A stretch of 64,000 nucleotides of DNA from Trebouxia sp. TZW2008 (lineage: Eukaryota > Chlorophyta > Trebouxiophyceae > Trebouxiales > Trebouxiaceae): assembly GCA_002118135.1 (NCBI GenBank), contig BDIU01000016.1, positions 124,001 through 188,000 on the forward strand. The letters are read 5' to 3'. The notes under the pieces are model-generated. The model searched no databases and was not told the DNA's origin. It was given only the letters and a program-made list of their open reading frames with translations. Made by a program: the position numbers and the translations under genes. The stretch's first letter is position 1; each line of letters begins with the position of its first letter. This document shows, one piece after another, positions 1 to 64,000 of this stretch.

Positions 1-174
1 CAGAAAGTCAACCTCTTCAAGCAGATAACTTGAAAGGGACTGTACCTGAGCATGAGCCCCTGCTTGCTTTCTGCAGTTGCTCTTTTTGTAACTGTTGGCA
101 GCTCTTGACCCCTGTCTTTCACCAGAATGTCAACCTTCTCAAGGTTATGATTTGAAAGCAAGCGCATCTGGGCA

Positions 175-343
175 TCAGCCGCTGCTTGCTTGCTGCAGTT
201 GCTGTTTTGTAGCTGTCAGCAGCTGTTGACTCCGCTCTGGAACCAGAAAGCAGCATCTGTGCGTCAGTGTGTGCTCCAGAAATGCCTTCCAAGGAGGGCT
301 TTTCTGCAAAGTGGCCCTGTGACCAATCACCCATATGCTGCGC
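175..343 (-). CDS. SEN1: Helicase last exon, after motif VI
   Basis: The acceptor ...TTTTGCGCAG precedes the exon, and its first base completes the AGG of ALTRAR. It reads [15 protein letters not shown] followed by WKAFLEH, matching the 'W-x-L-G-N-x-x-T-L' segment that follows motif VI in SEN1/UPF1 helicases. It then reads a Gln-rich tail to a TGA at 175-177. A diverged copy of the tail lies at 1-110 and stays open with a GT donor at about 45, so an alternative C-terminus past the window edge is possible. Confidence 0.75.
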
Positions 344-3300
344 CTGCGCAAAACAGGTAACACTGCGTTGCCAACAATTCACAAGCAAACAATGTCTGCA
401 TGACAGTTTAGGCAACCATGAATGACTGACTCCTAACATTACCTGCTTCACACAATCACCCACATCACCCGTCTGCAAATGCACAGCCTCATTTGCCCCA
501 AATGCCATTGAGACCAATGCAGAGGCAAATCAGGCTGGTGCAACACCATCTGCTTCCGGCTTTCCATTCATTTGATTCCAGTTTCATTCCGAAAATGCTA
601 GGCAGGCTCAGCAGGTCCAGCTAGGTACATACTACTTTGGTCCTGAACCCTTTGTACTGAGCATGCGGTCCTTCTCACGTCGAGGATGCTGTGCAGCAAT
701 ACAACCAGACAAGTAACCCGACCTGCAGTGACAGCGTGTTTTGCTATGCAGATGACTTGTGCTTACACAGCTGTGGCTGCGGCGGTTTTTAAACGCATGC
801 ACATCACTGCCCCAGAAGCAATTGGGCTTTGTTCAATTGCATTTGCTTCCCTAGCCAATATCAATAGTTTGAGGGCTTTCTCACATGCTTCATGTGCATA
901 CTGAATTTGGCTGGAAGTGCTCATCACTTTATTTTGCTGAGCATTCATCAGCAGGCAGTGGCAGATCAGTGTCACAGTCACACAATATCAACCGAAGCCC
1001 AATGAACGCGGCACAAGCTAGACTACCTTGGGTTCAGAAAGCACCACAGAGATATGGGCAATCGCAGTGGCATAAATACTAAAAGAATGATGGACAGCTT
1101 GGTTGCTGAATTCCATTGCATTCCATCTGAAAATTCATTTAGTTTCTGTTACACCAGGCTGGTCACAAGATTGTGAAAGTTGACACACACCTGGCTGTTG
1201 CAGTGCGTATTTGCCGACATATACAGCAATTGTTGTTACAGTGATTACTACAAATCCTGTCGTACAGAGCCATGCTCTTTGTATGCGGAAAGCAAATAGT
1301 CCTGGCAAATGCAGGCCGCATGAATGTGGCAAGCAATGAAGGCAAATACGATATGTGCGTATTTAGCTCCATTGCTTGCCACATTCATTCAGGGCACATT
1401 TGCCAGGACTATTTGTACCATAAAACTTGCCATACAAAGCCATTGTCTTTGTATCGATTGCGGACCTGGCCCTTGTGAGTGCCACATTCATGCGGCGCAC
1501 ATCTGCCAGGAAGCCCACTCCTCTTCTTCCGCCCCCAACAGCCCCAGGGCTGTCTCCTTCATGTGCCCTTACACAGCTGAACAGCACCACATCCGCTTCT
1601 TTGCCCTGTATGCACGCACAGACTCTAAGGTGCCATCAGACTGGTCTTACATGAGACACCAGAAGAAGAAGATGAGGAAGAGATCTGGACAAGAAGAAGA
1701 GCAAGCCCCAACGGCTCCAGAAGTGTCGCCTTCATGTGCCCTTACACAGCTGAACAGCACCACATTTGCCTCCTTGCCCCGTGCATGCATTTAGAGCTCA
1801 GGGTTTAGCGACTTCACCCGCACTCAAAAGCTGCAAGCAGGCTGAATGTGGCCAAGAAAAAGCAGAGGAAGTTGCAGCTGTCGCCAGAATCAAATTGAAG
1901 ACACTGGGTGCACACATGCTGCAAGTCTCCGTAAGAAAGCATGAAACATTCCATGCTTGGGCAGATCCTAGTTCACATGCTGCTGAAGTACCATCTGACA
2001 TAACCTTGGATGTGACAGATTGTGAAGATGAGTCACACTAAATGCTTGAAAGCTACATGCATTTACATGACACTCACAAGAAAAGTGTCAACATCATCTG
2101 ATGCACAGGCTACTTGCTTCAAAGCTGCATACTTAGAATACTCAACATCACAGTGGACGTCAAAAAGGCTCAAAATGAAATGCCTTTGCTGCAGGCCGTT
2201 TTCTGTGGCAACTTTGCCATTGGGAGGGCTGATGCAGCATGCGTTACCTGCCACTGACTTACCTGAAGCCATCTATGATAGCGCAATTGACATTGTGGGT
2301 TGCTGACTGGTGTGTTTTACCTGAAAGCCATCCACTGTAGCAAACTCAACATTGGAGAGAGTCGATTTGGCATGCTGGCGAGCAAAGGTGGATCTGAGCA
2401 GTGCCAACTGTGCCTTATAGGGCGTCAGAACAGCAACTGAGGCGACTTCTGGTCCAAAGTCCTGCATTAGACCTGCAGCAAGCCACAGCTTTTCCTAACA
2501 ATGGAGCAACGGGTTCAATTCCCACGTTGGGAAAATTGAGGATAGTTGCAAAAACCAGGCGAAGTGCCAGTTTGAAAGTTGGCAGCTTTCATGGGCAGCA
2601 GTGCCGATTGTGCCTTAGGGCGTCAGAATGGCAACCAAGGCGATTCTGGTCCAAAGTCTTGCATTAGGCCTGCAGCAAGACAAAGCTTGTGGGACCATGC
2701 AACAACGGTTCAATTCCCATATTGAAAGAGTTGAGAATGGTTGCAACAACCAGGCAAAGTGCCTGTTCGGAAGCTGGCAGTTCTCAACTGCAGCAGTGCC
2801 GACTGTGCCTTGTGAGGCGGCAGAACAGCGACTGATGCAGTTTCTGGTCCAAAATCCTGCATCAGACCTGCAGCATACCACGGCTTTGTTGTATAACGGA
2901 GTGATGATTCAATTCCCGAGTTGGAAAACATTGAGAATCGTTGCAAAAGCCAGTCAAAGTGCCACTTCAGGAGCCAGCTAGGCATCAAGATTGCCACTGA
3001 GACAACTTCTGGTCCAAGTTGGGGATTTTTGGTTGCAAATCTCAGGCAGTGTGCGAGTTTGTATGACAACATTACTGAAGTGCAGCAGTGCCAGCTGCGC
3101 CTTATTGGGCGTCAGAACGGCAACTGAGGCAACTTCTGGTCCAAAGTCTTGCATCAGACCTGCAGCAAGACAAAGCTTTTCCTTGACAATGTAGCAACGG
3201 TTCACCTCCCAAGTTGAAAAGTCATGTTGCCAAAGGTGGACTTGAGCAGTACTAGCTGTGCCTTGTAAGACGTCAGAATGGCAATAGAGGCAATCTCTGG

Positions 3301-4177
3301 TCCAAAGTCTTGCACTGTACCTGCACCAGGACCAAGCTGTTGTTGGCAATGGAGTCATTGTCCAAATCTCAAATCAGAAAATCAATTTGCCAAAACCAGG
3401 CAAAGTGTCAGTTGCACACAGCAGCTTTTAAGTGCAGCAGGACTTTACAGTACAGAAGTAGCATGTGCACAGTGCACAATATATGAACGTTGCAGTATCT
3501 GCGAATGGCAATTGCAGCAATATCGTGGTTGCGAAGATGTCAATGTTGATGTGGATGCTGCAGTCACTACAATTATCAATCACAAACATGTCACGACAAG
3601 CAGCGCAAAAGGGCACAACAGTACAGACTCAACGGCATTTAGTAGCCATGCATTGTTGATAACAAGCCCATGATCATTGTAACAATTCTACTGTGTTGCC
3701 ATTTCACATGCTCTCATGCATGACAAAAGTGTTTCTTTTGCAAAATGTCACAGCTGTTCAAGGGCGAATCTCATGAATGCTTACTTAGCATTTGAAAGCA
3801 AGACAGCATACCTGCAAATAGCGTGCAGGCCACATCTGCTTCACTATGGTTGGAGAGGGAGGTGCTCGTGGGCCCCCCTCCACCCCTGATCCCACCCCTC
3901 TCTGACCCCAAGCTGCAAGCCAAATGACCTTCAGCCATGCATACTTGCAAATATGTCAATTGCAACAGGTTGTATTGGAGAAGCAATGCAAGTCATTGAC
4001 GCACTGCAAACAGGGTGCAGGCCACATCTGCTTCATTATGCTTGTAAAGAGATGTACGACTATGTGTTGCACCAGACAGACAAAGAAGTATACAAACAAG
4101 TGAACAAAATGAAGAAGAACAACTAGCAACAAATGAGCCCAATCAGCAAGCAACAGCAGCAGCAGCAGCGGCGGCAG

Positions 4178-4213
<36 letters not shown>

Positions 4214-7200
4214 TTGAAGAAGTCGAGGGCAAAGCAGCAGCAGAAGAAGAAAATGAAGTAGAAGAAGCAGAATATACCTGCAGTCAAAAAAGGCAAGGGG
4301 CGGGAAACAGGGCCGTTTGTGAAAGTCCGCCGCCCTGCTGCCAACAGCCCCTGCTAGGGCTGATGTGCCATCCTTCAAACTGCCCTGATAGAAGAAGAGG
4401 GACGGCCAGACGCTGATCTCCGGGTGCATGCGGTACTGCTCTGACAGCATTGTCACTGGATAGCCAGCCTGGATCAAAATGATAATTATTGGAAGGAATT
4501 GAGACAGTAATCACAAAAATGACAATATTATTCTAGTGTGCCTGGTAGAAGAAGAAGGACGGCCAGGCGCTGATCTCTGGGCGCATGCAGTATTGCTCTG
4601 ACAGCATTGTTACTGGCTAGCCAGCCTGCATGTTCACCACGATTCTGAAACAGCAATGAAAAGTGACAACAACAGTGACACCAACAGCCAGGAGAAACCG
4701 CCCTGATGGAAGCAGACTTTGCGAGTTGCAGATGAGAAACAAGGCAGATTACATCACACCTGTTGACGCCTTCAAGAGGGACTTAGCCAGAATCCCTAGC
4801 CTGAAGTGCGCCAGACAGGCTTTGCAGTGCAGTACCGTGCAGCATGTTGGCACGGATGAGCCAATCTCAAGTTGCCAATTGGTCAGATTCATGACAGCAT
4901 AGCTTGTCGCAGTCAGACCTACTAAAGCCTCTCAGACAGGGACTGAGCTAGAATGCTAGCCTCAGCTGCACAGGACAGGCGTTGCAATGCAAGATGTATT
5001 CTGCACAATGTAGATTGTTCAAAATTGACTTGCCAGTTGTTCATGGAGCACAAGAACCAGATTGCAGCAGAGTTCAAGGTGCCAGGGACAGACCTCTTGG
5101 AGACTGTCAAAGAGGCATTGAGCTGCAATTTGGCTTTGCCGCATGCTGATTGGACATAAGACGGATTGCAGCAAAGCTCAACCTGTCAAGGACAAACCTG
5201 TTGAAGCCTCTCAAAGAGGGATTGAGCCAGATTGCTAGCCTCTGCTGCCCTTGACAACACTGTTGGGGGTAGCTGCTTGGGGTCCCCCACCAAAACCACA
5301 TGACCCCCAGGGGCAAGAAGCTGAAGAGGCACTAATGCTGCTGGTTCTAGCGCCTGTGCTGCCTGCAGAGCCACCAAAAGAAGGTGAACAGGCACAAAGC
5401 TTGACAGCCAACACAATTGCACTTGGAGCCCTGGCTGCCTTTGTCTGCTGTGACATGTTTAGACGTGCGTCACAGCAGCGCTATTGGTTGCAGCTAAAGG
5501 CATCAGTCATGATGCCACTGAACACCTAAGACTGGGTCATCAAGTGAAATCAGTGCTTTCACTGAAGGTTCGCCGGCTAATGCAGCACAGCAGCAGCTGT
5601 CCTGGCAGCTGCCTTCATGGCCTTGAACAGTTTGCTTGGGGTTGACCCCGCACCCTTGACCAGGCAGCGTATGCAGTTCACTTTCATTAGACCGCTCATT
5701 GTGCATTCAGATCATGGGCCACATCTGACGTTGTCAATCATGATGGCGTTGAACAGAATGTTTGGGGTTGACGGCCCCTTGAATAGGCTCAGCAGATCTC
5801 CCGCTGCTGATGACAGAGTGCATGAGCACTATAGCTATGGGTAAATGCAGCGGTTATGGCGGCAGCTGACCTCATCAATGACGATGGCATTGAACAGCAT
5901 GATTGGAGTTGGCACCAGTGCCTTGACAACATAGCACATGCAATGCCTCTTACAAATTTTGGTCGCATGTGCACTGCAGCGCAAATGACAGCAGCAGTTG
6001 TTGGAAAGGTTTAGGAGGAGGTGGTTCAGAGGGAAAAGGGGAGGGGTTTTGGGTGGCAGCCACCTCATCAATTATGATTGCATTGAACAGCACAAAAGGG
6101 GTTGACACTGCACCCTTTGCCAATCTCAGCAGATCCACCCCTGCTGATGCCAGGGTGGATGTGTGTTGCGGCTATGAATAAACGCAGCAGTTGAGGCGGC
6201 AGCATCATCAATCATGACGGCATTGAACAGCATGGTTGGGGTTGACCCCGGCCCCTTGACCAGGCTCAGCACATGCCACGCCTTTTTCAAAACATGCATG
6301 GAGCATGAGCACTACAGCTACAAAAACAGCAGCATTTGCTGGGAAGCTCAAGGGAGAGACAAGGGGGATGGAAGGGAGGGTGGTGCGGGGGGCAGGGGAG
6401 GTGGTCAGTTTGGGTTGCAGCCAACCTCATCAATCATGATGGCATTGAACAGCATAGTTAGGGTTGATCCCGGCCCCTTTACTAGACTCAGCAGATCCCC
6501 CCCTGCTGATGAAAGGGTGCAAGCCACGACTTCTGCACTCTGCACCACAGCCTGCCTGACCCCCCTCTTAGCCCTGTGGGCTGCCTCCTTACCCTCTTTG
6601 ACCTGCATGAGTATACACAAAAAGCTGAAAGAGACAGAATGGCCTCACACTTAGAAGGTCTAGGGAAGAGACATCAACTGCAAATCTGACAACAGCTGCC
6701 TGGAGACCCTGAACAACAGCCTGCATTGACCCTCTCTTAGCCCTGTGGGCTGCCTCCTTACCCTCTTTCACCCGAACCAATACATACAGACTATGGTCAG
6801 GATACATAGACACACACCCAGAAGATGGAATGATAGAGTACGGCTGCATCAACCCAGAAGAAAGTTTGATCTATCAGGCGCCAAAGAATGATGACACCCA
6901 ATTCCTTATTCCTGCCTTCAAGCAGGAGTGTTCCTTGAGATACATGTGTCATTCAGTATAATACTGATACAATAACTGTAAAGACTGTTGTCATGTGTCA
7001 GACCTTCATCAGCCGTTCTTACCATGACACTCAAGACAAGCTCGTTTGGCAAGAAAGCTTGTGCCACACACGACTAGCATCTCTTCAGAGTGTAAGAGAC
7101 ATGCATGTTATGCTGTGATCACTAGCACTTATCATCATGTTCAGATTTCTACCTGTTGCCTGGCTTCTTGGAGCTGACCATACAGCAGTCTCCGTTTCTG

Positions 7201-10200
7201 CTTTAGTCCTGGTAGATCACTTGGCTGAGCCCCTTTGATCCTAGGATCAACCCCTGATCCCCCAGCTTTGACATCATCCTTTCTGTCACTCTTGACTTTG
7301 GCGCCTTTGCTACTGTCCAGCTTCACATCAAGGTCTGTTGTAGCCCTTGACTCTTCTTTTTTGCCAGTTCTGCCAGACACAGCAACCTCTGTCCTTTTGG
7401 TAGAGCTTGATCTGACATGAGTAAGGGATGACTCAGAGGCTGCTGATTTGTCAGTCTTCTTTGCTTTGCTGCCTGTCGGCATGTGATGTTGATGGTGTCC
7501 TTGATCATCCTGAACATCAGGGCTTGATCCTGATTCATCCCTCTTCCGCTTTTTCTTCTGCTTGTCGGCTGCAGCTGCTTCTGCAGCTTCTGATGGGCGG
7601 CCAGAAGTCAAATTTGGAGAATGGGAGGGAGTTGTCCTGACTGGACTGAGTGATCTGGACTTGCTTTCCCGCCTAGAATTTGAGTGATCTGCTGCAGCGC
7701 GCCCAGGGACAGCATGTATTGGGGCAGTAGTGTTTGGCAAGGGTGCATCATGCTGTGCATGCTGTGCATGCTCTGCCAGCTTGATTTGATCTGAAACAGC
7801 GTCCAATTGGCTTTTGATGTCATCACAGCGCTTCCTGCCATCATTGCTTGCAGCTGCACGGAACACAAGTAAATGTCTCCTGGCATTTGTACTTCCTTCA
7901 CAATGAATCAGGCTTGTGATTGGAGTAATAGCGAGGCAGAATCAGAATGTGAATGGCAGGCATCATGACAAAGAGACAGTCTGCGACTGACGGCATGAGA
8001 ACAAACGAATCTGCCAATTTGGATGACAGCATGATTTCAAAGCTACCTGGAATCTGACCCTACACAAGTTGGGATGTGATCCCAAATGCAATCTTGTTTT
8101 TGGGGGATGCAGATGTTTGCTGAACTAAAGCATGAGACACAAGCATCCAGGGCAAATATTGCAATATACCAACAAGCATGAGACACAAGCATCCAGGGCA
8201 AATATTGCAATATACCAACAAGCATGAGACACAAGCATCTAGGGCAAACATTGCAATGTACTAACAAGCCCTAGTGCACTTGCCATCAGCACAGACCCCT
8301 CTGCAATAATTTCATTAGGCAAGCAATTAGCTTGATTGATAGGATTTGAAGCAGACAGTATTGCTCAGCAGGGTGATTCAGACGCAACGCTTTGGCTGTC
8401 AGAGCCTGCTTGGGCGTTTGTAATTGCTGCTCACCTGCAGCCTTCAGTGTTTGTCCGTCCTTCTGTGCATAGCGATCTGCCACTTGATCCATAGCCCACA
8501 TGACAACCCCAGGGCTCATTGTTTCATCCCGCCCCATTCTTACCATTCCTGGCTGCCTTCTGGTTTTCCCAGTGCCTATGGGTCATGTGCAATGCCATCA
8601 GGGTCTTTACAGGGTTTGAACCTTGTAGCAATTGCTGTCAAGTCATCACAAAATCATGGATTTGGTCTTGCAGCACAGGGTTAATTGCGGCCCATTCTTA
8701 CTATACCCGGCTTCTTCTGGCTTTCCCACTGCCCATGGGTCATACGTAGAATCAGGGTTTGGGTAGGGTTGAACCCTTCTTGTGTGCGCATTTGTTTGCA
8801 GAAGTAAGGAGTGGCGCATTTTGATCACAAAGCTCATTGTTTGCCCCATTCTGACCATTCCTGGCTGCCGCCTGGCTGTTCAGTGCCCATGTGTCATGCA
8901 CAATGCCATTCTCAGGTGTCAATCAGCTTCAGACTTTTTAGCACTAGCACTCAACATACTGTTGCACAAAACAGTGCATTGCAACTTTGGACGCCCCACC
9001 AGCAGGACAATGTACCCTGTTGATGCCATGTGCGCCCTAAGGGTCGCGAAGAACCTGAGCGAACCCTGTTGTGTGCGGCCGCAGCTAACGCGCAAAACCA
9101 TTACGTCAAATTCCGTGAAGTTGGGGCGTCCCAACATGTTCGAAGTGCAGCCTTGCTGTCTGCATCTCCGTCAAGCCTTAGCAAGCCAGGGTTGCCATTT
9201 GGCTATGCCTATGCGACCAGAACATGTCACTGGCTTTCACTGGTCCCTGAACTAAAGTCAGGATCTATATTGGTGCACAGCCAGCATGCAAAAGCACTGC
9301 TGGAGGTTGTGTAGTTGGTCACCAGTCACTTGTAATGCGGATCATGTGGTTTGTCATGTGCCATTTTGCATAACTCACTGATGACTCACCCATTAGTAGC
9401 CCAGGGCTTGCTAGCCTGGCAATCAGCTCATCAATAGCTGCATTGGACTGCGCACAAACCAGAATTCTGAACTTGGGCACAGGGGCAGGGGCAAGGGCAT
9501 TTGCTGATCCAGCCCTGCCCTTGCTGGGGACCTGCCCTGAAGCTGCAACCTTGTCATTGCCATGTGATGCGCCCTCCCAAGGAAGCTGGTTGGAAGCCAT
9601 GACAGGTGCTGAAGAAGAGGAAGGCGGTGCAGGGGCTTCAGCTGGAGGGCCATTGGGGGCAGCCCTAGGATCAGGCTGCTGGGCCTTAGGGTTTGGAGGT
9701 GTGTAATGCTTAGCTAACAGTGCTGAGATGATGGCAATGATGGCAGATGTCTTGCCTGTGCCAGGTGGACCCTGCGCATCACACGAAGGTATATTTGCCA
9801 TCTCACGTCAACAGGCAGAAAGATGAAGGCTAGAACGACCTGTGGATCTGCGCTGATTGCAACAGCAGCAACTTCTTTGTTCATGTTTTTCCCCATGTCA
9901 TGTAAACACAAGGTAGCAAAACGCTAAAGTCCAAACACACACAAACTGAGAAGCAGTGAACCACCATACGTACTCGATACGCAATAGTAGTGAACAATAC
10001 GCAGTATTTGCATATATCACTTACTCAGTGCAAATTGTGGAGGATGCAATATGTTGGGGTCGATATGCAATACCTGACACACAAGTGTTTTACAGCATTA
10101 ATCACTGAAATGAAGAGCATGGCAATTCACTGCTGAAAAAAAAATTCGACCTGAAGCAGACTGAACAAGGCTTGGCCAGGATTCACAACAGTGGCAATGG

Positions 10201-13200
10201 CTGCCTGTTGTGAGCTGTTGTAATGCTCTCTCAGCTGTTCCTTCAAGCCTGCAGCTATGCCTGTGCACCTGTGCCATACATACCACCCTCAACGTCGTCC
10301 AAAACACACAACATATGTAAACATGGAACAGCCTTACAATAGTAGCGATGATGGTGTTATGTATGTGCAGTAGCTTTCAGCAACATCTGCCAGATTTCAG
10401 TGGCACCAATCTGAATTTGCTAGATTGGCCGCTGCTCCGCATCTCTGTATGTGCAACAAATGTCCAAAGGCAGCCTTGCTGCCTTGATCTTTGGATTGCA
10501 TGTTACAGTAAACTCTCTTTGTAAAGACACTCGATGTAAGGACAATCTTGATATAAGGACAACGCCGTTGGTACCCAATCAATGCTTTCTGACTGCAGCG
10601 GTCCCTCTGAGTAGGGACAATTCGATGTAAGGACAATTTTTTTGGTAACCAAAGCAGTCGTTACAAAGAGATATTACTGTATACACAATCACACCTAAGA
10701 AAGATGTGTCAATGGATTGTCCCAAGAGGCCGATGGTTGATGGTGCATGTGACAGGCAAATGCATAAGCAGCATGTTGTGTAAGCAGTGTTGTGCATGCG
10801 CATGATCTTTTGCAAGATGTATGCAGATATGTCCCCTCATGAACACAGTTGCAAATGCCACCTGACATGCCCTCTGATGTCAGCATGGGGGTGACATAGC
10901 AGAGCTGATTGCAGAATTCATGCCGCCACAAGACATGTCTTCTCTGCATAAAAAGAGAGAGAAGGAGAATTGCAACAGGCAGAAGAAGAGCACAAGAAGA
11001 TGATCACTTAGCCAGGGTAGCTGGAGATGTCTTGGGGGGTGCAGTTGGGTGAAGAAGCTGTGTGCGCAGCGGCTGCGGTAGCTTGGATGTATGGCACAAA
11101 GCCTGCAAGCAAAGATACACCAGTGTTCAGATGCATGTGCTATCTTTGCTTTCAATGTAAGGCCACAACACAAGAGGGGATAACACAAGAGGGGAAGTGA
11201 TTGCCTACAATGACTTGACCTGCCACTTAGGTCTTGCGTGCTTTGGATCACCTAACGTACGTCCTCAAATTGGTAGCGCATAAATAATAAAATCTGCCCT
11301 GCGCGATCAGCTCGGGTAACTATCTTGCCCCTGCGCAAAGCGCTCTGCGCGAAGCAATTCAATAATTGTTTTGGCTAAAAAGTCCCCAAAACGCTTTAAA
11401 TTCACGATTTTCGGCCGATTTTGGCCATGTTTTGCCAACTGCACGATGCCTCAAAACCCCTCAAGGCCCTGCGCAAATAGAGTGCTCAAAGCCCTAAAAC
11501 AATTCAAAATTTTGGGATGCGCGATTGATTCGAGGACGTATGGTACTACAGTGCTTGCAAGTGGTTTGGCACGAGTCAAAATGCTTTGCTTGGCAAGATT
11601 GACAAGAAGAGCTTGCCTTTGCATTTGGCTATGCAGCAAATGACCACAAGGGGAACCTGGTTACTCGAGATTGAGTCAACGAAGCAAACAACTGCAGAAA
11701 ATACGCTATAGGGCAGCGGCACAGTTGTGGATTCCAACACATCAGGCAGCAGGACCGCTTGGCATGCTTAGCAGAATAAAGAAAACAATTTGACGATAGC
11801 AGTAAATATAACAAGACGTAATAAATGAAGAAAACAATTTGAAAATAGCAGTCAATATAACAAGACGTGCTAAATGAAGAAAACAATTTGACAATAGCAG
11901 TAAATATAACAAGACGTAATAAATGAAGAAAACAATTTGACAATAGCAGTAAATATAATCAGACGTGATGCCAGTCTTGCTGAGGTCAACACCGTGCAGG
12001 TATGTTGTCTTTGAGGTATAGGACACATGACAAATGCAGGTGCCGGCGGCTTACAATGAACTGGCGAAGGTGGGGAGTCCAAGACATCAGACGGCGGGAT
12101 TGCCACATGGACTGAAGCGTAAGAGCCCGCTGAGCTTGAGCGCTGCTGCTGCTGCTACCTGCATCAATTATAGTACTTAGGGCTGCTGTTGATGGCAACT
12201 TGTGACATATGCCACAAAAGAGCACCTTGGCTGCCGAGTCGAGTGAGTTTAAGGCTGTCTGGAGTTGAGGTTCTGACGGAGCTGTTCTCATGCAGCAAGC
12301 AGCAGACAGCAAGCAGACTGCAGCTTGGCTGTGTCTTGCACAATAGACTAACGCATTTTGCCTGTGTTGAGCTGTGCAGCTGCACATTCTGCTGAAGAAT
12401 TTCAAGCGCGACCTCGTAATTGAACCACACACGCAATAAATCTAATTTCTTGATTTTGTTCAGCAGTCAGGCAGACTGTAACATATGCCACAAGTTTTTC
12501 AGTAATACATGATGCAGATAATCTGGTTTGCAACTGGGTCAATAGCTGAAACCCTAGACCTTTGTTCTTCTTCAGCTCACCAGACAGACAGACAGTAGCA
12601 TATGCCACAAGCTTTCTGGATCCATCCAATTCTTTCTCACTTTCCACCTTGTCAACCAGCGCCATGAGGGCTGCAGCCCTCTGCCCTGCCCTGCCAGCTT
12701 CCGCCTTGACTCCCTCACTGGTCAAAGAATGAGTCAACAGCAACAGATCTTCTCCCCTTACAGCCTCCCTGAACAAGTTGAGGTTTAGTAATGTCATTGT
12801 GAGGGCGATTCCCTGGATGATCAACATCAGGGCTGCAGCTTTCTGCCCTGCCCTGCCAGTGTTTGCGTTGAGTCCCTCACTGGTCAAGGAATGAGTCAAC
12901 AACAGCAGGTCTTATCCCCTATAGCTTCTCTGAGCAATTCAAAAACTAGCCAAGGGCACTTTTGTGCTTTTATTGAAAGCTTTGAGTCATCTCAGGTGAG
13001 TTTTGTGTCATTGCCGTCTTGACAAGCTTCAAACATATACCCTCCACTCTGCTGCTTGTATTGAGACCCCATCTACTTATACATATGTACACACTCTGGA
13101 AACCACGTCACAGTCCAGGGAGTCACAAACAAGTAATTACTTTGGCCGTGGTCATCTGAAAGCTGGCCTGTCATCAAGGCTCAAGCACAAGCTGAATAGC

Positions 13201-16200
13201 ATACAGGTCATTGCATTTCGGCATAGCCCTTGTCAAGCTGGTCTTCAGCCACACTCTGTTACAAACTCACAACAACACAAGATTGAGCCTCACTGCGCTA
13301 TCAGGGACCATGGAGTTCGCATGAGCGTTGACTTGCCAAGAAGCTAGCCTGTCATCAGGGCCCAGGGCAAGCTCAATAGCATATGGTCGCTGCATCTTTC
13401 TGCAAAGCCCTTGCCAAGGGGGATCAACTCACAACAATGTCAAGCTGAGCCTCCATGGAATGATGACTTGCCAAGAAGCTAGCCTGTCATCAGGGCCCAG
13501 GACAAGCTCAATAGCATGTGGTCGCTGCATTTTTCTGCATAGCCCTTGCCAAGGGGAGTCAAATCACAACAATGCAAAGTTGAGCATCCCTGGAATACGG
13601 ACTTGCCAAGAAGCGAAACTGTCATCAGGGCCCAGGATAAGCTCAACAGCACATGTTTGACTGAGCCAACATACAGCCCTCAACTACACGATCAATCCCA
13701 TTGATGACGCACCAAGCACAAGCACCATTTTAAGAGCAAAGGCAGTACTGAGCAACTGAGTTCTGAATAAAGGCTCACCTGTCATCAGGGCCCAGGACAA
13801 GCTCAATAGCGTACAGGTCGCTTCGCCTCTGCATAGCCCTTAACTGCACCAGGGCAGATCCAGGAGCTGCCCTGCTGGAGTGCCCCTGCCATTCCTCTTC
13901 TGCCTGCATAGCCACAGACAAGTTCAGTAGCACGCTTGGTTCCAGATGGTTACCACCAAGCTACCAGTTGGCTTACTGTTGGATGCAACAGAGAATGGAA
14001 ACTGCTGTTCAGAATCATGGACACAGCCTGCCTGCCCAGGAGAAATGAGCAGGATAGCCTCTTCTTCTTACTTCCCTGTCTTCCCATTATGCACATAGCT
14101 ACCTGAAGAAGATGCGCTGTGAGCTCCTCAAGCTGCAGCACTTTGCACACTTGACAGTATTCTTGCACATAAGAGAAAGCTATTGGTCAAGCACACAGTC
14201 TGCCTCTAGACATTTTTGCATACAAGGAAGCAACTGGGTTATTGTTAATCATGCACACATGCCTGAAGAAGATGCGCCTTCAGCTCCTCCAGCAGCAGCA
14301 CTCTGAACAGTTGACAGTACTCTTGCAGGCTCTGAAATTGTATGGGAACTCTTTTCATGCCTGATCCCGTCAGGGCTTTTCCTGGAGATGCCCTGATGAT
14401 GGTGTCGTAATCCCAAGTCAGCAAATCTCGCTGCACATCTTGCAGTGACAGCCCAACCTGCAAATTCAGCACACATTGTGACACAATAGGCAAAGCATAG
14501 CACAGTGTCCTGCTGATATGTACGGCATGTGCAAGGGGATGTTGATGCCACACCCCTGCAGGGCTTTTCCTGGGGATGTCCTAATGATGATCTTGTAGTC
14601 CCATGTCAGCCAATCCCGCTGCGCATCTGGCAGCGCCAAACCAACCTGAAGAGCCAGCTTACACAGTAAAATGTATGTTGCATGGTTTGTGTAGACCATG
14701 TGCGGCATGTGCATGCACTTCAGCGCCACTTGCAGAGTCGGCATACAGTGTTACAGTGAAATGTCAAAGAATACAACACGTGTAGGAACAATTTCTGGCA
14801 AGCGCAGACCACCTTCCTATTGGCCTATACAGCACACTTGGGCGGAAGTTCTTGTAGCGTCCATTCAAACACCATGTCCTATAACGGGTGGATGCAATGC
14901 CATTTGGAGCATGGCGCAAATTGAATGGATGTATAGACGCATTGGCGATCATCATGGTACAGATTTTGCATCAATGATGAGCATTGATCACGCATGAAGA
15001 GTCAGGGTGCAGACAGCTTTGCAATTGTGGCTCTGTACACATGTGTAATGTCAATGAGTCATACCTCAGGGTTAGTGTCTTTAGGGTTCTGACGCCGCTG
15101 CGCCCACTTAGCATTAGTCATGGTGCTGGTAGCAGCAGGTGCTGGAATTGTGATAATCTGAGCTCTGCGAGGTGGTTCTGCGCTAGGGGCAGAGGGCAGA
15201 CCCACAAGTGCCCTCTGTCCTTGATGCCTGTACAGAAACCTCTCTTTATAAGAACACTCCGTGTAAAGACAATTTCGATGTAAGGACAATGCCATTCGTA
15301 ACCTAACACTGCATTCTGACTGCAGTGGTCCCTTTGAGGACAGATTGATGTAAGGACAAATTTCTTGGTAACCAAAGCAGTCGTTACAAAGAGACTTTAC
15401 AGTCAAACCATGCAGTGTTATGCTGACTAGGAAACAGGATAATCAAACAAGGTCAGAGTGTAAACCATCGCTGGAACCTGTGATCTACTGTACCGACTAT
15501 TTGTGCTTACCTGTTGAAAGAGGCAAGCTGTGCATCAAACTCATCATCTTCCATAAGCACGGGGGAGGGGCTTCTAGAACGACCCTGCCCTTGGCCCTGC
15601 CCCCGGCCCTGCCCTGATGACTCATTGGTGGTGGTCTCATGCGGCCCAGGACGCAACCCTACAGGTTGTGCCATTTGTGCCTTGCGCTCAAATTGGACAC
15701 AGGTCATGAATTTTGACAAAAGCATGAGTCATGCATCTAAGATCTGATCTCTTAGCACAGCCATGCTGACGTGCTGTCAAAGACGTACAAGAAGTGCATT
15801 GGCATTACAACCGTGCTGTGCTGTTGTTAGAATCAAACTGCATGAAAGGGTCACAGTCGTGCATGGCACTCAATCGCTCAAGACGAGGGTATGTGCGCAT
15901 TCGACCCTGGGGCGTATGCAAACTTGATAATGGCGATGACAATGACCAAAGCAATGGCGACTGTGACTACACTGTTCCTGGCACTGCCTTATGCATGTCC
16001 ATGGGTTGTCTTGTGTCTCAGACTGGGCGTGCGCATCTGATTCTGGTGCACTTGCAACCCTGTCCAGCAAGCAGCATTCAAATGGTGACAGTACGACTGC
16101 ACTGTACCTATCATTGATGTGTAATGCGTGCCAGTTGATTGAGCCAAGATGAGGCTTAGACTTGTGTATGCATTTGATCCTGTTGCACTTGCAAAACTTA

Positions 16201-18256
16201 CCAGCAAGCAATCAAATTGTGATGGTACGACTACACTATACCTGTCACTGGCCTATGGTGCATAGCAGTCAGCTGCTCAAGACGCGCCTCAGACTGCGTG
16301 TGCGCATTTGAGCCCGGCGCACCTCCGATCTGCCCTGCCAGGCCTGACTGGGGCTGAGCCAAGTGCCCTGTAGAGGGGGTTTGATGTTGGCCCCAGGGGG
16401 GTTGAGCCCAGACCCCAAAGCTAGGGGCTGATTTGATTGGGGAGGTCTGAGCTGCACTGCTTGTGCCAAACCATGGCACGCTTGAGAACTGTGCCTGCTG
16501 TGCCTGCTGGGCCTGCTGAGCTTGCTGAGATTCACATGTGGTGTTTGAAGCAGCAAAAGTAGCAGCAGCAGCACTAGGCCTTGTATGCGGCATTTGCTGC
16601 TGCTGCTGTTGTGCATTGTATGCACTGCTGTTGACACCTCTGTGTGCACTTTGTAAGGCAGCCGGTCGATCTTGCTGAGCACTGTGTGAGGTTGACTGTA
16701 CGGTATCTGGGTGAAGATACTGCGCCGTCAGCGACATCTTGCCCTTTTGCTTGCTCTTTCCTTTGGCTTTGTCTGGCACTGCAGCCTTCCCTCCCCATTC
16801 TGGCGGCAGCAATGACTCTATGTCCCCTCGAAGCTCAAGAGGCCGTTTCACCCCTTTCTTTTTGGTTACGGCCCCTGTGGCCTGTTTTGGCTGCTGCCGC
16901 TGTTGCTGCTGTGACTGGTGCTGACTAACAGGCTGCTGATGTGTAGTAAGGGATGACTGATTTGAGTTCCTGCCATGCAATCTTTGCTGCCAAGCATGTT
17001 CGATGAATTCATTTGAGTGGCCACCAGGGAGGGCTGTTCCTGACATGCCCTCATTGAGAGCGGCTCCAGCCAAGCCCTCTGGAGACTGCTGAGCAGCTTC
17101 CTGAGGAGCTGCATTGTTGACAGCATGCGGAAACTGCTGAAATCCTTGACCCAAAAAGTTAGTCAACGAGGACTGTTTCTTTCTGGAAGAAGTTGAAGGG
17201 GCTCCTGGTGAAGAAGCAGACACCAAGCCTGGGGACAGTCTGGATGCTTTGCCTGCTGGGGACGAGGCTGAAGGGGCACTAGCAGCAGGGGAAGAAGTTG
17301 AAGGGGCAGGGGTTGGGGATCGAGAGGCTCTGCTGGGGAGATTACTCAAGGATGATGTCATGCCCAAATTTCCTGGAGCTGCATGGCCAAATAATGGCGC
17401 CAGCATAAGCCTGTTCACAGTCACACAGTTTAGTCACAGTCTGTCATGAACGTGACATGAGAAAAAGAAGCGCATCAAACAGCAGCATCAGCGCCAGCCT
17501 GTCTAAAGTCACGCAGCCTGAGTCACAGATTGTCGTGATCATGACACGAGAAGAAGAAGCACATCAAAGGAGGGAGCAGCAGCAGCGGCAGCAGCAGAAA
17601 CAATGACAGTTGGATCAAGAGGAACAGCAATCAAAAGGCAAACAGATCTCCTGGTGCTATACGGCCAATGAATGGCGCTGACATGAGCCTGGAGACAGCC
17701 ACATAGCTTGAGTTGCACCCAGTCATATGTCACAATTGTGACATTAGAAGAAGAAGCGCATGAGAAGGCGCAGTAGCAGCAGCAACAACAGCTACAGCAG
17801 ATTGTGCTTGTGCTTGACATTTGTGCTTCTGCTTCACTTGTCACAAGTGTGTCACATGTCACAGCTGTGTTGCATGTAACAAATGTGTCACATACGAGAG
17901 CCAGCAGTATGTGACCCATGGCTGCAAAAATGAGGACGCAGAAGGACAGGAAGAAGAAGATGATCATGCAACACATGACGCAGAAGAAGAGAGAAGAGAA
18001 GGGGAACAATGAAGGCTTCCTCTAATTCAGGTCATTGTATGACAATCAAGCAAAGTCTCGACAAAAAGATACACATCACAAGGACGTTCTTCATGTCACA
18101 TCAATGTGGTTGGGGGCCAGTCATTGCATCATTTCAAATGCAATGGTACTCAGAAACAACCCAATGTAAAGTCAAGTTTGGTGGTGAGCAGTGCAGATGG
18201 CATAACAAAAAATTACTGTCCCTTGGTCTGTCTGGCAGGCCAGCTTTGAGCCCCGA

Positions 18257-18306
<50 letters not shown>

Positions 18307-32217: not shown

Positions 32218-32966
32218 GATGGCGTCCCGCAGCTTATGTTAATGTCCGAGACAATATCGTGGAGCAAAACCTTCAGCTGAGACGCTTGCTGATATAACGC
32301 CTCAATCCAACATCAGCGGCTTGAGCGGTAATGTCCCAGCGCTACATTTGTGGTGGTGCGTCGAATGGGTGTCAGTGTGCACCTCGAATCGCAGCGTACA
32401 TGGCGTCACAGACGAGTCCGACAAGACACAAGACAAACCAAGCTTGCGCACGACACGCATATTTCCAACGCGGCTAGAGTGCAGCAGCCGCATGGACAGC
32501 TGCACGCAGCGCAACGCTGTCGTAACTGCATTCGTGGAAGTAATTGACACATTGAAGAAGAGCCATTGTCTGTGTGTCCGTCATGAAGCTAAGAGGGCAT
32601 TTGAGTTCGCCGTTTCATATCCCTGGCCACTCACAGGCCAGACCTTACGTCAATTTAGCAACAAACGACGCTTATTAAACCCTCTGCTACGAGCTGACTC
32701 AATTTGAGACAACGCGCTTGCCATAAAGAGCCTTAGCTGTGCAAGACGAGCAGTTGTTTTAGGGACGTCAGTTGTTTATTCTTAGCTTTTGTTGCGACAG
32801 CTGAGCACAACAGCAGGGACTTTTGCTCACAGTCTACCTGAATGCAAGGAACTCTACTGCCGTCCTCGCAAATCCATCAGGCCCCACCCGTGGCGGCAAA
32901 CCTTCCTCGTCCGTCAAATTTGCATAGACAGGTGATCAGGCAGTCCAATAGTACAACTCAGAGCTT
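32218..32966. promoter_or_regulatory. Divergent promoter region, helicase/oxygenase
   Basis: About 750 bp lie between the two divergent start codons. The stretch 32050-32700 is richer in CpG than the introns around it, as expected of a promoter with 5' UTRs. A plus-strand open frame at 32321-32707 and a minus one at 32302-32550 overlap here and resemble no known protein. No TATA box was identified. Confidence 0.4.
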
Positions 32967-38900: not shown

Positions 38901-39081
38901 TTTTGCGGCAATGGCAGCAGCAGCCTTGGTAGCAGCTGCTGCGGCAGGTGCTGGGTCAGCTTCAACTGCAGCATGGGCTGCTGTGGCTGTGAGCACTGTG
39001 TCAGCGGCTCTAGCTGCATGGAAGCTGGGACAGATACGGCAGAAGTTCCTTTTTGTAGACTATGTGCAAGCTGATCACTGA
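32967..39081 (+). CDS. Pheophorbide a oxygenase/TIC55-family Rieske oxygenase
   Basis: Eight exons join in phase into 524 codons: 32967-33138, 33444-33630, 34491-34668, 35067-35194, 36042-36299, 37259-37475, 38081-38299 and 38866-39081. Exon 1 is rich in Ser, Arg and Gln and looks like a chloroplast transit peptide. The Rieske [2Fe-2S] ligands are CPH (exon 2) and CAYHGW (exon 3). The mononuclear iron region is LLENVLDPSHVPFSHHG in exon 5. Exon 7 ends in HTQHCKHC, the CxxC typical of PAO/PTC52/TIC55. Exon 8 has two Ala-rich membrane helices. The family acts at plastid membranes, with PAO opening the ring of pheophorbide a in chlorophyll breakdown. Which subfamily this belongs to is not decided. 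The length is normal for the family. Confidence 0.92.
34050..34440 (+). repeat. Three dead acceptor-side copies of the Rieske exon
   Basis: Copies of exon 3 start after CAG at about 34052, 34231 and 34362. Each keeps the junction and the LSEGRIET-like start. None keeps the CAYH of the cluster: the His is Arg in the first and Tyr in the second and third. The first also has an in-frame TAA. Only 34491-34668 is intact. Confidence 0.85.
35400..35864 (+). repeat. Intron 4 repeats of the oxygenase gene
   Basis: Two diverged copies of a roughly 190-bp unit occupy about 35400-35780 (both contain GTTTGGCTTGA and a CAGCCGGCCTGT). They are followed at 35789-35864 by a 19-bp minisatellite, TTGCATCAAGCCAAGTTCC, four units. 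Confidence 0.8.
36405..36446. repeat. Interstitial telomere-like tract, inverted
   Basis: It reads TTTAGGGTTTTAGGG and then a degenerate repeat, followed after a few bases by CCCTAAACCCT. So G-strand and C-strand telomeric repeats face each other within about 42 bp, in intron 5 of the oxygenase gene. The unit is of the plant/green-algal TTTAGGG type. Confidence 0.75.
36480..36725. repeat. Two-copy repeat in oxygenase intron 5
   Basis: Two diverged units of about 115 bp share ACAGCACCTTGTCCAA and CTTGCTTTCATCATGGT. On the minus strand they read HKMAANTMMKASM-like. No family was recognised. Confidence 0.6.
36975..37200 (+). repeat. Acceptor-side copies of oxygenase exon 6
   Basis: Two copies of the start of exon 6 (YEFGGPGMQMITYCT) lie upstream of it, at about 36980-37030 and 37117-37180. 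Both retain ATGATCACATACTGCACAC or a close variant. Confidence 0.85.
37505..37775 (+). repeat. Donor-side copies of oxygenase exon 6
   Basis: Two copies of the end of exon 6 (WLTFLNHFQRNLVLDGDG) lie downstream of it, at about 37520-37620 and 37690-37770. The first ends CATTACCAA|GTGTG; the second has lost the GT after CATTGTCAG. Confidence 0.85.
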
Positions 39082-50347: not shown

Positions 50348-50481
50348 GTTCCAACGCAGGACTGGCGTCGCAGCCGAATATAGCGACGCCGATTCACATA
50401 TCTGCAGCAGCTATCTGCAGCTGACGCCGACCCTCAGCCTGCGTCCGCGTTGCCTGCAGACGTTTGACCAACGGATACCAT
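50348..50481. promoter_or_regulatory. Divergent promoter region before the GH30 gene
   Basis: A short CpG-rich stretch between the GH30 start at 50482 and the possible start of the minus-strand hypothetical gene. No specific element was identified. Confidence 0.35.
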
Positions 50482-60222: not shown

Positions 60223-60255
<33 letters not shown>

Positions 60256-63200
60256 GCGGGGATCAGGATGACGCAGCAATGCTGTGATTGCAGCAGGTGC
60301 TGCCATTGCCTTCTGCACAATGCTGCTACAGCACATGCACTGATATTTCCTGTCCTAGGCATGTTGCCAAGTGACATGCAAAGCTGCCAGGATGACACCT
60401 GTTTGCTCAGGAGTGAGTGGCGAGGCAGATTCTGTGCCAGGTGATGGAGTGACTAACAACGTGCCACTTTGGACGTGCTGGGAACATGCTGATCGGTGAT
60501 ATGCACAACCACCAGAATATCACCTGTTGGCTCAGGAGTAGACGGCAATGCAGATTCTGTGCCGGGCAAAAGATTACATAAAGTCTGCTGCCAAAGTTCC
60601 CAGTGAGTGTGTACACATGATGCCGCATGACAAACACAGCTGAACAGAGTATCACCTGTCTGCTCAGGAGTAGATGGCAGAGCAGGTTCTGTGGCAGGTG
60701 CAGGGGTGACTAAAAGCCTGCTGCCAAAGTCCTTGGAGAGTGTTCTGCTGCAGCAGCTGCCAGCTGCTGATGTGTCAAAGCATGCTAGGGCTGCAGGCGG
60801 CGGAAGGGAGACCCTCATCCTGCATGACTCAACTGATCAATCTGTATCATCACTACCTCAACTGATAATGATGCTAGGGCTGCAGGCGGCGGAAGGAAAA
60901 CCCCTCATCCTACATGACTTGAATGGTTAGTCTGTATCATCATTACTGATACAATTGGTAATGATGCTAGGGCTGCAGGCGGCAAAAGGGGCACCTCATC
61001 CTACATGACTCAAATGATCAGTCTGTATCATGGTCATTGATACATTTAGTGATGATGCTAGGGCTGCAGGCGGCAAAAGGGGCACCTCATCCTACATGAC
61101 TCAAATGATAAGTCTGTATCATGGTTATTGATACATCGAGTGATGATGCTAGGGCTGCAGGCGGCGGCAGGGAACCCTCAACCTGCATGACTCAAACTTT
61201 AGTCTATTGGAAATGATGATGCTGCGAGAGCTGCAGCCGGCGGAAGGGAACAACCTTGTCCTGCATGACCGCTTTTTTGATTGTGCATTGCAGGATGATA
61301 TTGTATGACATTGTGCAAATGATGCTTGACATGAATGAGTGACATTGTACAGGAGGACGTGTACAAATTGCATGACTGTTGCTATGATTGCCACGTGAGG
61401 ATTCCAGCAGTAGCCCTTAATATATCACGCCAGCTGCCTCATCAATAAATCCAGAATGCCAAGCTGTATGACATGAGGAACCCAGATGCTCACTGGAGAA
61501 TCTGAAAGAGAATCAGGGAGCAACCAGCAATGCTTCGCGAACGCATCTTCAAGTACACAGATCCAAAGCTGGTTGACGTAGTCTAGAAGCAAGCAAGTAA
61601 AATACCTTCTTGGCCGCATGAAGCCTCGTATGCGTGTTTTGTAATGCACGCCTCCCACAGATTTTGGCACTGTCTGACAAGAGCATGAGGGCATCTCTGA
61701 ACTGCCCTCAGCAGCAGGGCTGTTGCCCTGCATCTTGTCTGACCTTGACCTTGTGAAGAAGTTGGATGCAGCTGGCGAAGGCGGGCTGTTTGGCGCCAAG
61801 TTTGCGCTTGTTTGGCGCTGACTTGGGTAAGTTTGCTCCATTGCTGACTGACACCTTGCAACATGGCGGGAAGTAGCAACAGGAGAGGAAGGGCCTGGTG
61901 ATGATGGCAGGTTGGCGTCAGCATTTGAATTTGCTGGTGCGCTTGATGAGGCGGCAAAGGGCGATTGAAGCGCTGTGGCCGCTGTGCTCTGCTTGCCCAA
62001 TTTGAGTCTCTGAAGGAGCCCTGAAGCTCGTGGGGCCAAGTTGGGAGGGGAAACGTCACAAAGGGTGTCATTTGAAGCTGCCAAGTCAGCTTCAAACCCT
62101 GAGGCAGATGTGCTCAAGACATCTGGCGCCAAACTTGCTGATGCTGCTGCATGCTGGGGTGCGCCGTGCGAAGCACTTTGGGAGGGAGAGGGAGTCGAGA
62201 GCGCCAACTCAGTGCCAGATGTGGAGGGAAGATCCAGAACTGGTACATCAAACTCATCGCTGACGCTTTGCACGCTTTGCATGCTGTGCACCTGGTTTGC
62301 GCTGAGCAGCCTATCATAGGTCAGCAAGGGTGTGTGGCTGTGCATAGTTTCATGCTGGGCAAACGGTTGAACAGTGCTATCAAGCACAATCTCATATCTT
62401 GTTCCGAGCAGGTTTGTCTCAATCCGTGCACAAGGTGTGCCAGTGCAAGAAGAGGCAAGGTAGATTCTGATATCCAGCCTGCAAGACAATACTAACATCT
62501 TTTTGTTTTTGAACAAGAGAAGCCCCAGAGCTGATTGGCAAACCAAGAGCTGAGTGAGAACCTGATGCATTATGGCAGGGAAAGTGATGTGAATGCACGT
62601 GTCATACTCAAAGGAAACTGCATACATTGCATCTCACGTTGACACGGCAACAAACAAATGCATTGTCATAGATGCCATTCCTAGCTGGGGCCCCTGATGC
62701 TGCCTAGCTATGTATGCATTGCCATACATGATGTTCCTAGCTGGGGCCCCTGCGCCTGCCTAGCATGCTTTTTTTAATGTATCCATTGAAAATCAAGATG
62801 CCAATGCATGCGCACCCAGCTACATGTGCATTGCCATACATGATGTCCCTAGCTGGGGTCTTTGAGCCCGCCTAGCATGCGTATTTGATGCATCCAATAA
62901 AACATGAGATGCCAATGCATGCTGACCTGGATGCCTGTAGAGCAGTCATCAAAAAGGTGCTGCTGCTGAGTCGGTCTCCCTGCCGCAAAGTATACCTTAC
63001 AGACTTTTTCTGGCTTGAGTCATACTCTCGCTTCATGACGCACTTGACTAATTGTGCGCAGCTGTGTACTGGTGCAGGACTCTGCAGAAGGACAATGGGT
63101 TTGAATGCTTTGTGTTGGAAGGTCAGCGGAAGCTGAGTGCTCTGTGCATAAAGGGCGATGAGTTTGTGTGCTCTGTGTTGCAAGGCCAAAGGAAATTGCG

Positions 63201-64000
63201 TGCTTTGTGTGCATGATGCAACGGTTTGGGTACCATGGCATCAGTTTGAGAGGAGGCAATCAAAAGTTGAAGCTGGTATCTTGCAAGCATGCGCCATGAC
63301 AGGCATAGGACAGGGGCTTGTATTTCATGCAAGAACTCTGTTGCCGTGCAAAGAACATGGCAGCACATGTATAGATGCACACTGTCAAGGAGCAGGTTAC
63401 TAATGCCAGGTGAATACGTCATCAAGCGCATGGAATGGCTGGTGTGTGTGTTGCTTGTTGTAAATCAGTGTGAGAGTGAAGCCGTACCAGCTCTAGCAAC
63501 TGCACAGGATGCTTGATGGCTCCAGAACTACTCCACATGCTCCTGAAGAATATTCGCCGGCCTATTTGACGCCAAAGTTGCGAGACTGCAGTGACTGCAA
63601 ACTGTGTCTGCAAAACAAGCAAGAGCTTCAGCATCATGAGTTAGCAAAGGTCAACATGCAGAAGTTGTTTCTGACAGTGTCTGTGTCATCCCCTGCTGGG
63701 TCCGTCAGACAGGTAAAACGCTGATATAATGTAATGCACTCAGACGCAGATATTCACAATGGTTTTTCGATTCTTGAACCGGCTATGGGATGGGATGCTA
63801 GAGTTGAGACAGGAAGTAAGATGTCAAACAATTGGTAGCCAGCATGAAGCAATCAGCACCTGCTTGATTGGCTTGCTTGTGGAGTGTAATGGGGGTTGTG
63901 GCTCTTCCAGCAAAAGTTGCATGACAGCCTCGACCAAATGCTCAGGGAGAGTGCCCCATGCACTGCATCTGTCTGCCCTGTCGTCCATGCCTTCAAGCTG
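59127..64000 (-). CDS. TULP: F-box tubby-like protein, 5' end outside the window
   Basis: Exons, all joined in phase: >63860-64000, 63488-63607, 62927-63081, 61606-62478, 60656-60819, 59663-59979 and 59127-59240. The first holds [19 protein letters not shown], an F-box start; the second continues [14 protein letters not shown]. Tubby-domain landmarks follow: [69 protein letters not shown] and [13 protein letters not shown] with stop at 59127-59129. The domain binds PI(4,5)P2 at membranes; the F-box links to SKP1/CUL1 ligases. About 210 disordered residues interrupt the domain within exon 61606-62478, and a second disordered insert precedes NKPPHW. The C-terminus lacks the usual final CE. Confidence 0.9.
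60224..60256. repeat. CTG/CAG microsatellite
   Basis: About ten TGC triplets ending in CGCGGGG, in the tubby intron before exon 59663-59979. Confidence 0.9.
60420..60600 (-). repeat. Donor-side copies of a tubby exon
   Basis: The end of exon 60656-60819 ([17 protein letters not shown]) is repeated downstream at about 60398-60450 and 60515-60575, both keeping CACCTG or the GT donor. Confidence 0.85.
60868..61255 (-). repeat. Acceptor-side array of the same tubby exon
   Basis: Five copies of the exon start ([12 protein letters not shown] with CATGCAG acceptor or a close variant) lie upstream, marked by AGGGCTGCAGGCGGC near 60876, 60969, 61059 and 61151, and a variant near 61230. Spacing is about 80-93 bp. 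Confidence 0.85.
62655..62890. repeat. Three-copy repeat in a tubby intron
   Basis: Units contain CCTAGCTGGGGCCCCTG and GCCTAGCATGC, centred near 62690, 62745 and 62855, with GTGCATTGCCATACATGATG between them. They lie downstream of exon 62927-63081; similarity to its donor end is too weak to claim. Confidence 0.7.

Follow-up and report, generated by a model that had tools for sequence, protein, structure and literature searches.

In the introns examined of the green alga Trebouxia sp. TZW2008, exons are flanked by local copies of their own ends, and these copies are one-sided: those of the 5′ end lie upstream, those of the 3′ end lie downstream, and one intact exon is retained between them. 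This arrangement was found in and around a 64-kb stretch of DNA, called here the window (C16:124001-188000, where C16 denotes contig BDIU01000016.1 of an assembly of 68.5 Mb and 527 contigs). In three curated genes, 116 end copies lie on the predicted side and 2 on the opposite side, which bears out the strict side rule put forward in a preliminary description of the window, and shuffled introns used as a control gave 0 matches. Most probably, introns are lengthened by head-to-tail duplications of about 165 bp across exon-intron junctions, filtered by selection for one intact exon. The interpretation given in the preliminary description is, as a whole, partly supported.

One-sided copies of exon ends

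The sequence studied beyond the window comprises its flanks, which extend it to 264 kb of C16, a 28.6-kb stretch of a second contig (C1:100001-128643) and seven chaperonin loci on seven other contigs; most data come from the single contig C16, and exons were curated partly by judgement. A self-trained two-strand gene finder called copied exon ends as exons, and its raw counts were set aside for three homology-curated genes with 70 exons and 67 introns, namely an oxygenase, a SEN1-like helicase and an ABCC transporter. The oxygenase, which is 72% identical to a protein of Trebouxia sp. C0010, has nine intact exons that correspond by spliced alignment, at 100% amino acid identity, to the transcript-derived protein P0001 (538 amino acids); since the longest P0001 contig measures 2,556 nt and the coding locus 6.2 kb, this contig must be spliced. 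The helicase (31 exons, in the window) and the transporter (30 exons, outside it, with an 85% alignment to a protein of Trebouxia sp. C0006) were placed via spliced alignment of homologues from Trebouxia and other organisms, a few of their exon borders being decided by the gene finder or by the coordinates of the preliminary description. The homologues point to Trebouxia or a close relative as the source organism. The 65 donor and 68 acceptor sites of the curated genes follow the consensus TGCAG/G at acceptors (T at -5 in 83%, G at -4 in 75%) and CAG/GTAAG at donors. A GC donor occurs at helicase exon 14263-14457 in both homologue alignments.

32842..39081, + strand: Rieske/PaO-type oxygenase gene (spliced alignment of P0001)
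32842-32931, 33015-33138, 33444-33630, 34491-34668, 35067-35194, + strand: oxygenase coding exons 1-5 (P0001 alignment)
36042-36299, 37259-37475, 38081-38299, 38866-39081, + strand: oxygenase coding exons 6-9 (P0001 alignment)
1466..31836, - strand: SEN1/senataxin-like helicase gene with about 30 coding exons, located through Trebouxia homologues (P0202 and P0203, spliced alignment)

For the side test, the introns on either side of a curated exon were compared with that exon over at most 1.5 kb. Copies of 5′ ends were found 54 times upstream and 0 times downstream, copies of 3′ ends 62 times downstream and twice upstream. A further 39 matches are internal (25 upstream, 8 of these in one low-complexity stretch, and 14 downstream), and none of the 157 matches is a whole-exon copy. 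Acceptor and donor sides are equally affected, 31 exons having a 5′-end copy and 31 a 3′-end copy. Both wrong-side copies sit on exon models of doubtful status: helicase 20854-20925 was later recognized as a copy derived from the genuine exon 20532-20678 but kept in the side-rule counts, and helicase 3812-3912 has a frame that differs between the homologue alignment and the gene finder.

The same orientation is found at other loci. In 22 other predicted genes of C16, 32 copies follow the rule and 0 oppose it, with 9 internal and 2 whole matches, the latter belonging to the same unvalidated predicted exon; copies occur at 25 of 117 junction sides. The seven chaperonin genes (57 predicted exons) gave 8 copies for the rule, 0 against and 1 internal match, in four of the seven genes. 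The scans of these 22 genes and of C1 were limited to predicted exons reaching 50 bp in length and a score of 4, and that of the chaperonins skipped exons below 30 bp.

When an intron end and the adjoining exon start are duplicated head to tail, only the downstream copy continues into the rest of the exon, and the upstream copy must therefore become intron; the mirror image applies to donors. The side rule thus follows from tandem duplication combined with the need for one intact exon. It is evidence for tandem duplication rather than an extra law, and its earlier presentation as a separate rule was overstated.

Among the exons first cited as examples, those that were realigned hold. The oxygenase exon then numbered 6 is the seventh coding exon of the transcript-matched model (37259-37475); it has upstream copies of its first part and downstream copies of its 3′ end. 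The tubby exon 60656-60819 (with borders as first proposed, the Tub domain being found in another piece of the gene) and the helicase exons 14263-14457 and 20532-20678 (the latter with its acceptor border as first proposed) also hold. For helicase exon 16242-17410, the upstream copy of the 5′ end is found as described, while the downstream copy corresponds to exon bases that lie close to the 3′ end without reaching it. The monooxygenase exons 40912-40999 and 42019-42204 fit as well, the former being a predicted exon defined by the gene finder and Pfam FAD_binding_3.

34063-34173, 34251-34292, 34360-34431, + strand: three 5′-end copies upstream of oxygenase exon 34491-34668 (side-test alignment)
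36980-37025, + strand: upstream copy of oxygenase exon 37259-37475 from its first base (5′ end; realigned)
37131-37183, + strand: upstream copy of the same exon from its 13th base, counted as internal (realigned)
37540-37611, 37688-37768, + strand: two 3′-end copies downstream of the same exon (realigned)
14542-14645 and 14103-14167, - strand: 5′-end copy upstream and 3′-end copy downstream, respectively, of helicase exon 14263-14457 (realigned)
20815-20925 and 21060-21153, - strand: copies upstream of helicase exon 20532-20678, the first reaching its 5′ end, the second starting 16 bases in (realigned)
20317-20384, - strand: 3′-end copy downstream of the same exon (realigned)
25949-26083, 26128-26262 and 25525-25646, - strand: two 5′-end copies upstream and one 3′-end copy downstream of helicase exon 25715-25904
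6706-6771, - strand: 5′-end copy upstream of helicase exon 6426-6602 (side-test alignment)
6205-6277, 6064-6157, 5871-5927, 5734-5822, 5501-5537, - strand: five 3′-end copies downstream of the same exon
4541-4625, - strand: 5′-end copy upstream of helicase exon 4278-4468 (side-test alignment)
17643-17688, - strand: upstream copy of the 5′ end (17365-17410) of helicase exon 16242-17410 (realigned)
41086-41154 (99% over 69 bp), 41241-41307, - strand: 5′-end copies upstream of FAD-binding monooxygenase exon 40912-40999
40767-40835, - strand: 3′-end copy downstream of the same exon
60871-60903, 60964-60995, 61055-61086, 61146-61180, - strand: four 5′-end copies upstream of tubby exon 60656-60819
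61223-61249, - strand: fifth upstream copy, near the 5′ end of the same exon
60524-60610, 60399-60464, - strand: two 3′-end copies downstream of the same exon

The ABCC transporter gene beside the window, at least 35 kb long, is densely copied, and copies within it were called as exons by the first gene-finder run. Its exon 20 (C16:221010-221258, locus L015) has five 5′-end copies, two further upstream matches and three downstream, all within its own locus.

Probable intron growth, unit size and copied splice sites

At least one junction copy is present in 47 of the 67 curated introns, whose median length is 889 bp with copies versus 394 bp without. Copy number correlates with intron length (Spearman 0.63), which supports the early proposal that introns grow by this route. 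The regression slope of 186 ± 45 bp of intron per copy is close to the median unit of 165 bp, measured as the distance to the nearest junction copy (interquartile range about 135-190). Detectable repeats make up 35% of the bases in the 62 introns of up to 1.6 kb, and much intron sequence is therefore of other or older origin; that the introns are wholly built from copies was too strong a statement.

The repeats are predominantly local. In the 264 kb of C16, 509 of 647 self-matches are less than 1.5 kb apart, covering 26% of the sequence, and 138 are farther apart; one locally shuffled copy of the same sequence gave 0 near self-matches. This locality, together with the strict sides, supports the tandem duplication across junctions envisaged at the outset. 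Near repeats occupy 31% of the bases in predicted exons (false ones included), 23% of those in predicted introns and 33% of those between predicted genes. The 272 first-neighbour repeat pairs have a median period of 167.5 and a median identity of 80.6%.

According to the mechanism proposed, segments of about 165 bp would have been duplicated head to tail, repeatedly, in these genes and in the sequence around them. Selection would remove any duplication that lies within an exon or takes in a whole one, since it changes the protein. After duplication of a single junction, one copy would stay intact and the other would become intron, with a copied AG or GT, and 5′ ends would accumulate upstream and 3′ ends downstream. 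Each event would lengthen the intron by about one unit, and the copies would afterwards decay under little constraint. Duplication sources that would fit the unit length are fill-in repair of staggered breaks and mis-joined replication intermediates of nucleosome or Okazaki size.

Selection is visible in the missing classes. No internal repeat was found within the 70 curated exons, and whole-exon copies, expected at about 9% of whole-or-partial events under uniform duplication, number 0, a result with a chance of 0.003 for 62 events; the view that selection keeps one full exon is thereby supported. Repeat pairs in curated introns include exon sequence, that is, span a junction, in 63 of 97 cases (65%). 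Simulated uniform duplication with selection gave mean junction shares of 37-68% across settings in which ages and ancestral lengths were varied; these simulations used random introns, simple indel rules and age ranges chosen by the analyst. Settings with ancestral introns of 100-200 bases were rejected, their repeat coverage of 80-98% being too high. Homology continues past the splice site into the intron, above the 95th percentile of mismatched pairs, in 44 of 116 copies (acceptors 23/54, donors 21/62), and identity on the intron side is below that of neutral simulation.

Among the copied acceptors, 44 of 54 have an AG (37.9 expected under selection-free decay, 3.4 by chance); among the copied donors, a GT is seen in 37 of 62 (expectations of 41.4 and 3.9, respectively). 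These counts come from ungapped alignment; the gapped version (AG 45/54, GT 40/62) is biased towards matches and was not used. Purging of splice sites was considered and rejected, as the loss of GT and AG in copies fits decay without strong selection. Scores at or above the 5th percentile of true sites were obtained for 38 of 54 copied acceptors and 35 of 62 copied donors, so that the spliceosome faces many plausible predicted sites. One transcript-derived protein, that of the oxygenase, uses intact exons exclusively.

Divergence of the copies and competing explanations

Relative to expectation, the copies differ from their exons mainly at synonymous sites, an unexpectedly coding-like pattern that the preliminary description had not foreseen. 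The ratio of nonsynonymous to synonymous change (N/S) is 0.32 with kappa 2 (bootstrap interval 0.27-0.38 over 62 junctions) and 0.35 with kappa 3.16, and the ratio of third to second codon position mismatches is 2.45. By age class, N/S rises from 0.26 through 0.31 to 0.45. In polarised triplets it is 0.64 for changes confined to the copy and 0.18 for those confined to the working exon, based on 112 pairs that overlap and are not independent of one another. Helicase 20854-20925 and helicase exon 29 were dropped from the divergence analyses, neither contributing to the 116 right-side copies; for helicase exon 14, internal matches were dropped from the tally of stops and gaps, and the whole exon from the polarised triplets. 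In one copy read by eye (4541-4625 versus helicase exon 4278-4468), 4 synonymous and 5 other changes are found, including one stop.

Several observations weigh against a simple, steadily running duplication of junctions with decay from birth. Copies simulated as dead at birth gave an N/S of 0.57 and a third-to-second position ratio of 1.54 (observed: 0.35 and 2.45), and a median identity of the intron flanks of 0.70, compared with 0.58 in the data and a mismatched-pair background of 0.52. No first-neighbour pair among the 272 reaches 97% identity and only 4 reach 95%, whereas a process running steadily would supply such pairs. In the simulation settings whose coverage is nearest to the observed 35%, the junction share is 44-57%, below the 65% seen. 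Although the copies of curated genes are not scattered at random on both sides, uncurated exon sets are less clean: raw gene-finder exons gave 117 copies for the rule, 31 against, 65 whole, 22 internal and 115 exon-to-exon matches, and with the retrained finder the counts were 124 in favour and 9 opposed, plus 10 whole and 55 internal matches. The cause is that programs of this kind mistake copies for exons and place false exons inside repeat arrays. Finally, in the 28.6 kb of C1 (L022-L024), 0 of 45 junction sides are copied and near-repeat coverage is 0-1.4% per piece; the predicted introns there are of ordinary length, similar to those elsewhere, despite the near-absence of repeats. With three of the seven chaperonin genes also without copies, this contradicts the suggestion of a genome-wide mode of intron growth. 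Repeat density differs sharply between genome regions, and the process is not everywhere.

The identities of near repeats in the 264 kb of C16 peak at 80-85%, and this peak, without pairs at 97% or more, suggests that the copies stem from a burst long ago, that they were divergent when they arose, or that young copies have been collapsed. The coding-like divergence, for its part, points either to an origin in diverged alleles, to temporary use of the copies, or to strain mixing in the assembly.

The first of these origins is a tentative variant of the duplication scheme, in which duplications joined two diverged alleles of a highly diverse population, through template switching or through unequal exchange involving homologues. 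Each copy would then have differed from its neighbour from the outset, at synonymous positions in the exon part and strongly in the intron part. Simulations with a prior coding divergence of 0.15-0.30 per neutral site gave an N/S of 0.36-0.24, a third-to-second ratio of 2.1-3.0 and an intron identity of 0.66-0.60; the observed N/S and codon ratio fall inside these ranges, and the observed intron identity is missed by 0.02-0.08. The rise of N/S with age class occurs in these simulations and not in dead-at-birth ones, and the lack of pairs at 97% or more fits as well. Against the variant, it would require very high allelic diversity, the N/S of copy-unique changes is nearer to neutral, and one monooxygenase copy matches its exon at 99% identity across 69 bp of exon sequence. 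Raised mutability of third positions alone lowers the simulated N/S to 0.40, though the intron side stays at 0.72 and its pattern is unmatched. It is a speculative idea, with rather low odds, that in parts of the genome introns grow by junction-spanning duplications joining diverged alleles, so that many intron edges store frozen fragments of the exons of other haplotypes. If it were true, these edges would be one-sided, datable records of past allelic diversity, many with plausible splice sites.

It is unlikely that the copies stayed under coding or splicing constraint through occasional use, as alternative 5′ or 3′ sites or partial exons, and decayed later. Such use would agree with the 77 of 116 copies that have no stop or frameshift in the exon frame, with the slight excess of retained AG and with the many copied sites scoring like true ones. 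It is countered by the 44 of 50 alignment gaps that break the frame, by 29 stops (internal matches included in both tallies) and by a loss of GT as expected without selection, and no repeated segment was seen in the oxygenase transcript protein or in 11 further proteins of relatives.

An assembly artefact, in which overlapping ends or the sequence of a second strain were wrongly kept in tandem, seems very improbable. Mixing of two strains would suit both the coding-like divergence and the lack of nearly identical pairs, but four probes (oxygenase, two helicase stretches and ABC transporter) reveal no second version of a gene elsewhere in the assembly, matching outside their own locus only over 28-41 bases. 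Moreover, arrays hold up to about nine graded copies, the functional oxygenase exons all correspond to one transcript protein, and C1 is nearly free of repeats.

Also hardly to be expected is copying directed specifically to exon-intron junctions, with splice sites or nucleosomes bound to exons as conceivable targets. The junction share exceeds that of coverage-matched simulations, and a modest preference for junctions therefore stays compatible with the data, though not required: mean shares of 65-68% also arise in three neutral settings whose coverage is higher, the exonic extents of copies are broad (21 to 156 bases), and repeats also lie on a third of predicted intergenic bases (33%).

Other candidates were rejected. 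Introns made by introners or transposons disagree with the same four probes, which match their own gene only apart from these short stretches; the ABC exon probe in particular matches its own locus only, the copies being local and not dispersed. Random or transposon-borne insertion of copies is made unlikely by their sides and locality, and duplication of mutually exclusive exons by the lack of whole-exon copies among the 157 matches. An origin of the copies from cDNA was also considered.

Known systems, significance and other features of the window

To our knowledge, intron lengthening without transposons is poorly documented. Partial duplications within genes have reportedly been described, and are alike in the kind of event; the present case is denser, with nearly half of the exon ends in three genes copied and several copies at many of them, and adds a side test against shuffles and a simulation. 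Human introns are said to derive from tandem arrays (work attributed to Zhuo, 2007), those around splice sites being linked to alternative splicing; the broad likeness lies in tandem arrays around splice sites, the present case being known from genome sequence.

With duplications across existing junctions taken as the probable route, its direction, its unit size and the filter of selection can be read from single genes, because every copy can be set against a conserved exon. The copies also provide many natural pairs of true and copied splice sites for testing the choice made by the spliceosome, and their divergence pattern merits a direct test. Users of gene predictors should expect copied exon ends to be reported as exons, which happened here.

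Intron gain by tandem genomic duplication, where duplication of an exonic segment with AGGT creates a new intron, is established (reviewed in PMC3443670; for Drosophila, PMC2891723), with a further case in potato (PMC4974935). The likeness lies in a local tandem duplication within a gene, a doubling of splice signals and the conversion of one copy into intron. Here, by contrast, existing junctions are copied and introns lengthen, with no new intron shown: none of the 70 curated exons has an internal repeat, and the copies flank existing introns. Internal tandem repeats and minisatellites in genes (PMC2812944) resemble the arrays with units of about 100-200 bp present here, but in this case nearly two-thirds of the repeat pairs in curated introns (63/97) include exon sequence and many exons are copied on both sides. 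In mammalian cells, fill-in by CST/Pol alpha-primase at staggered breaks gives small tandem duplications (PMC8355091); the short head-to-tail duplication after a break is alike and may, by analogy, be a source here. Among titles and abstract openings of the open-access literature, no description of intron growth by junction copies was found, and the paper on the Trebouxia A48 genome contains neither "tandem" nor "repetitive" and has "intron" only in a reference.

In the window, Rfam gave nothing above the gathering score and a tRNA search found none. Two long diverged tandem arrays are present, at 23243-24193 (unit of about 111 bp, eight to nine copies) and at 52820-54183 (150 bp, about nine copies), with units 77-86% alike. 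Five sites, 10500-10682, 15230-15403, 30238-30400, 39264-39442 and 46082-46256, carry a dispersed repeat that is about 180 bp long and may be a short mobile element, one copy adjoining the acceptor of helicase exon 15065-15227. Its copies in the window are 73-84% identical to one another (70% for one pair) and 88-94% identical to the 39 best-scored full-length copies on other contigs; genome-wide, a first look gave 1,012 candidates, of which 40 were scored, in both orientations.

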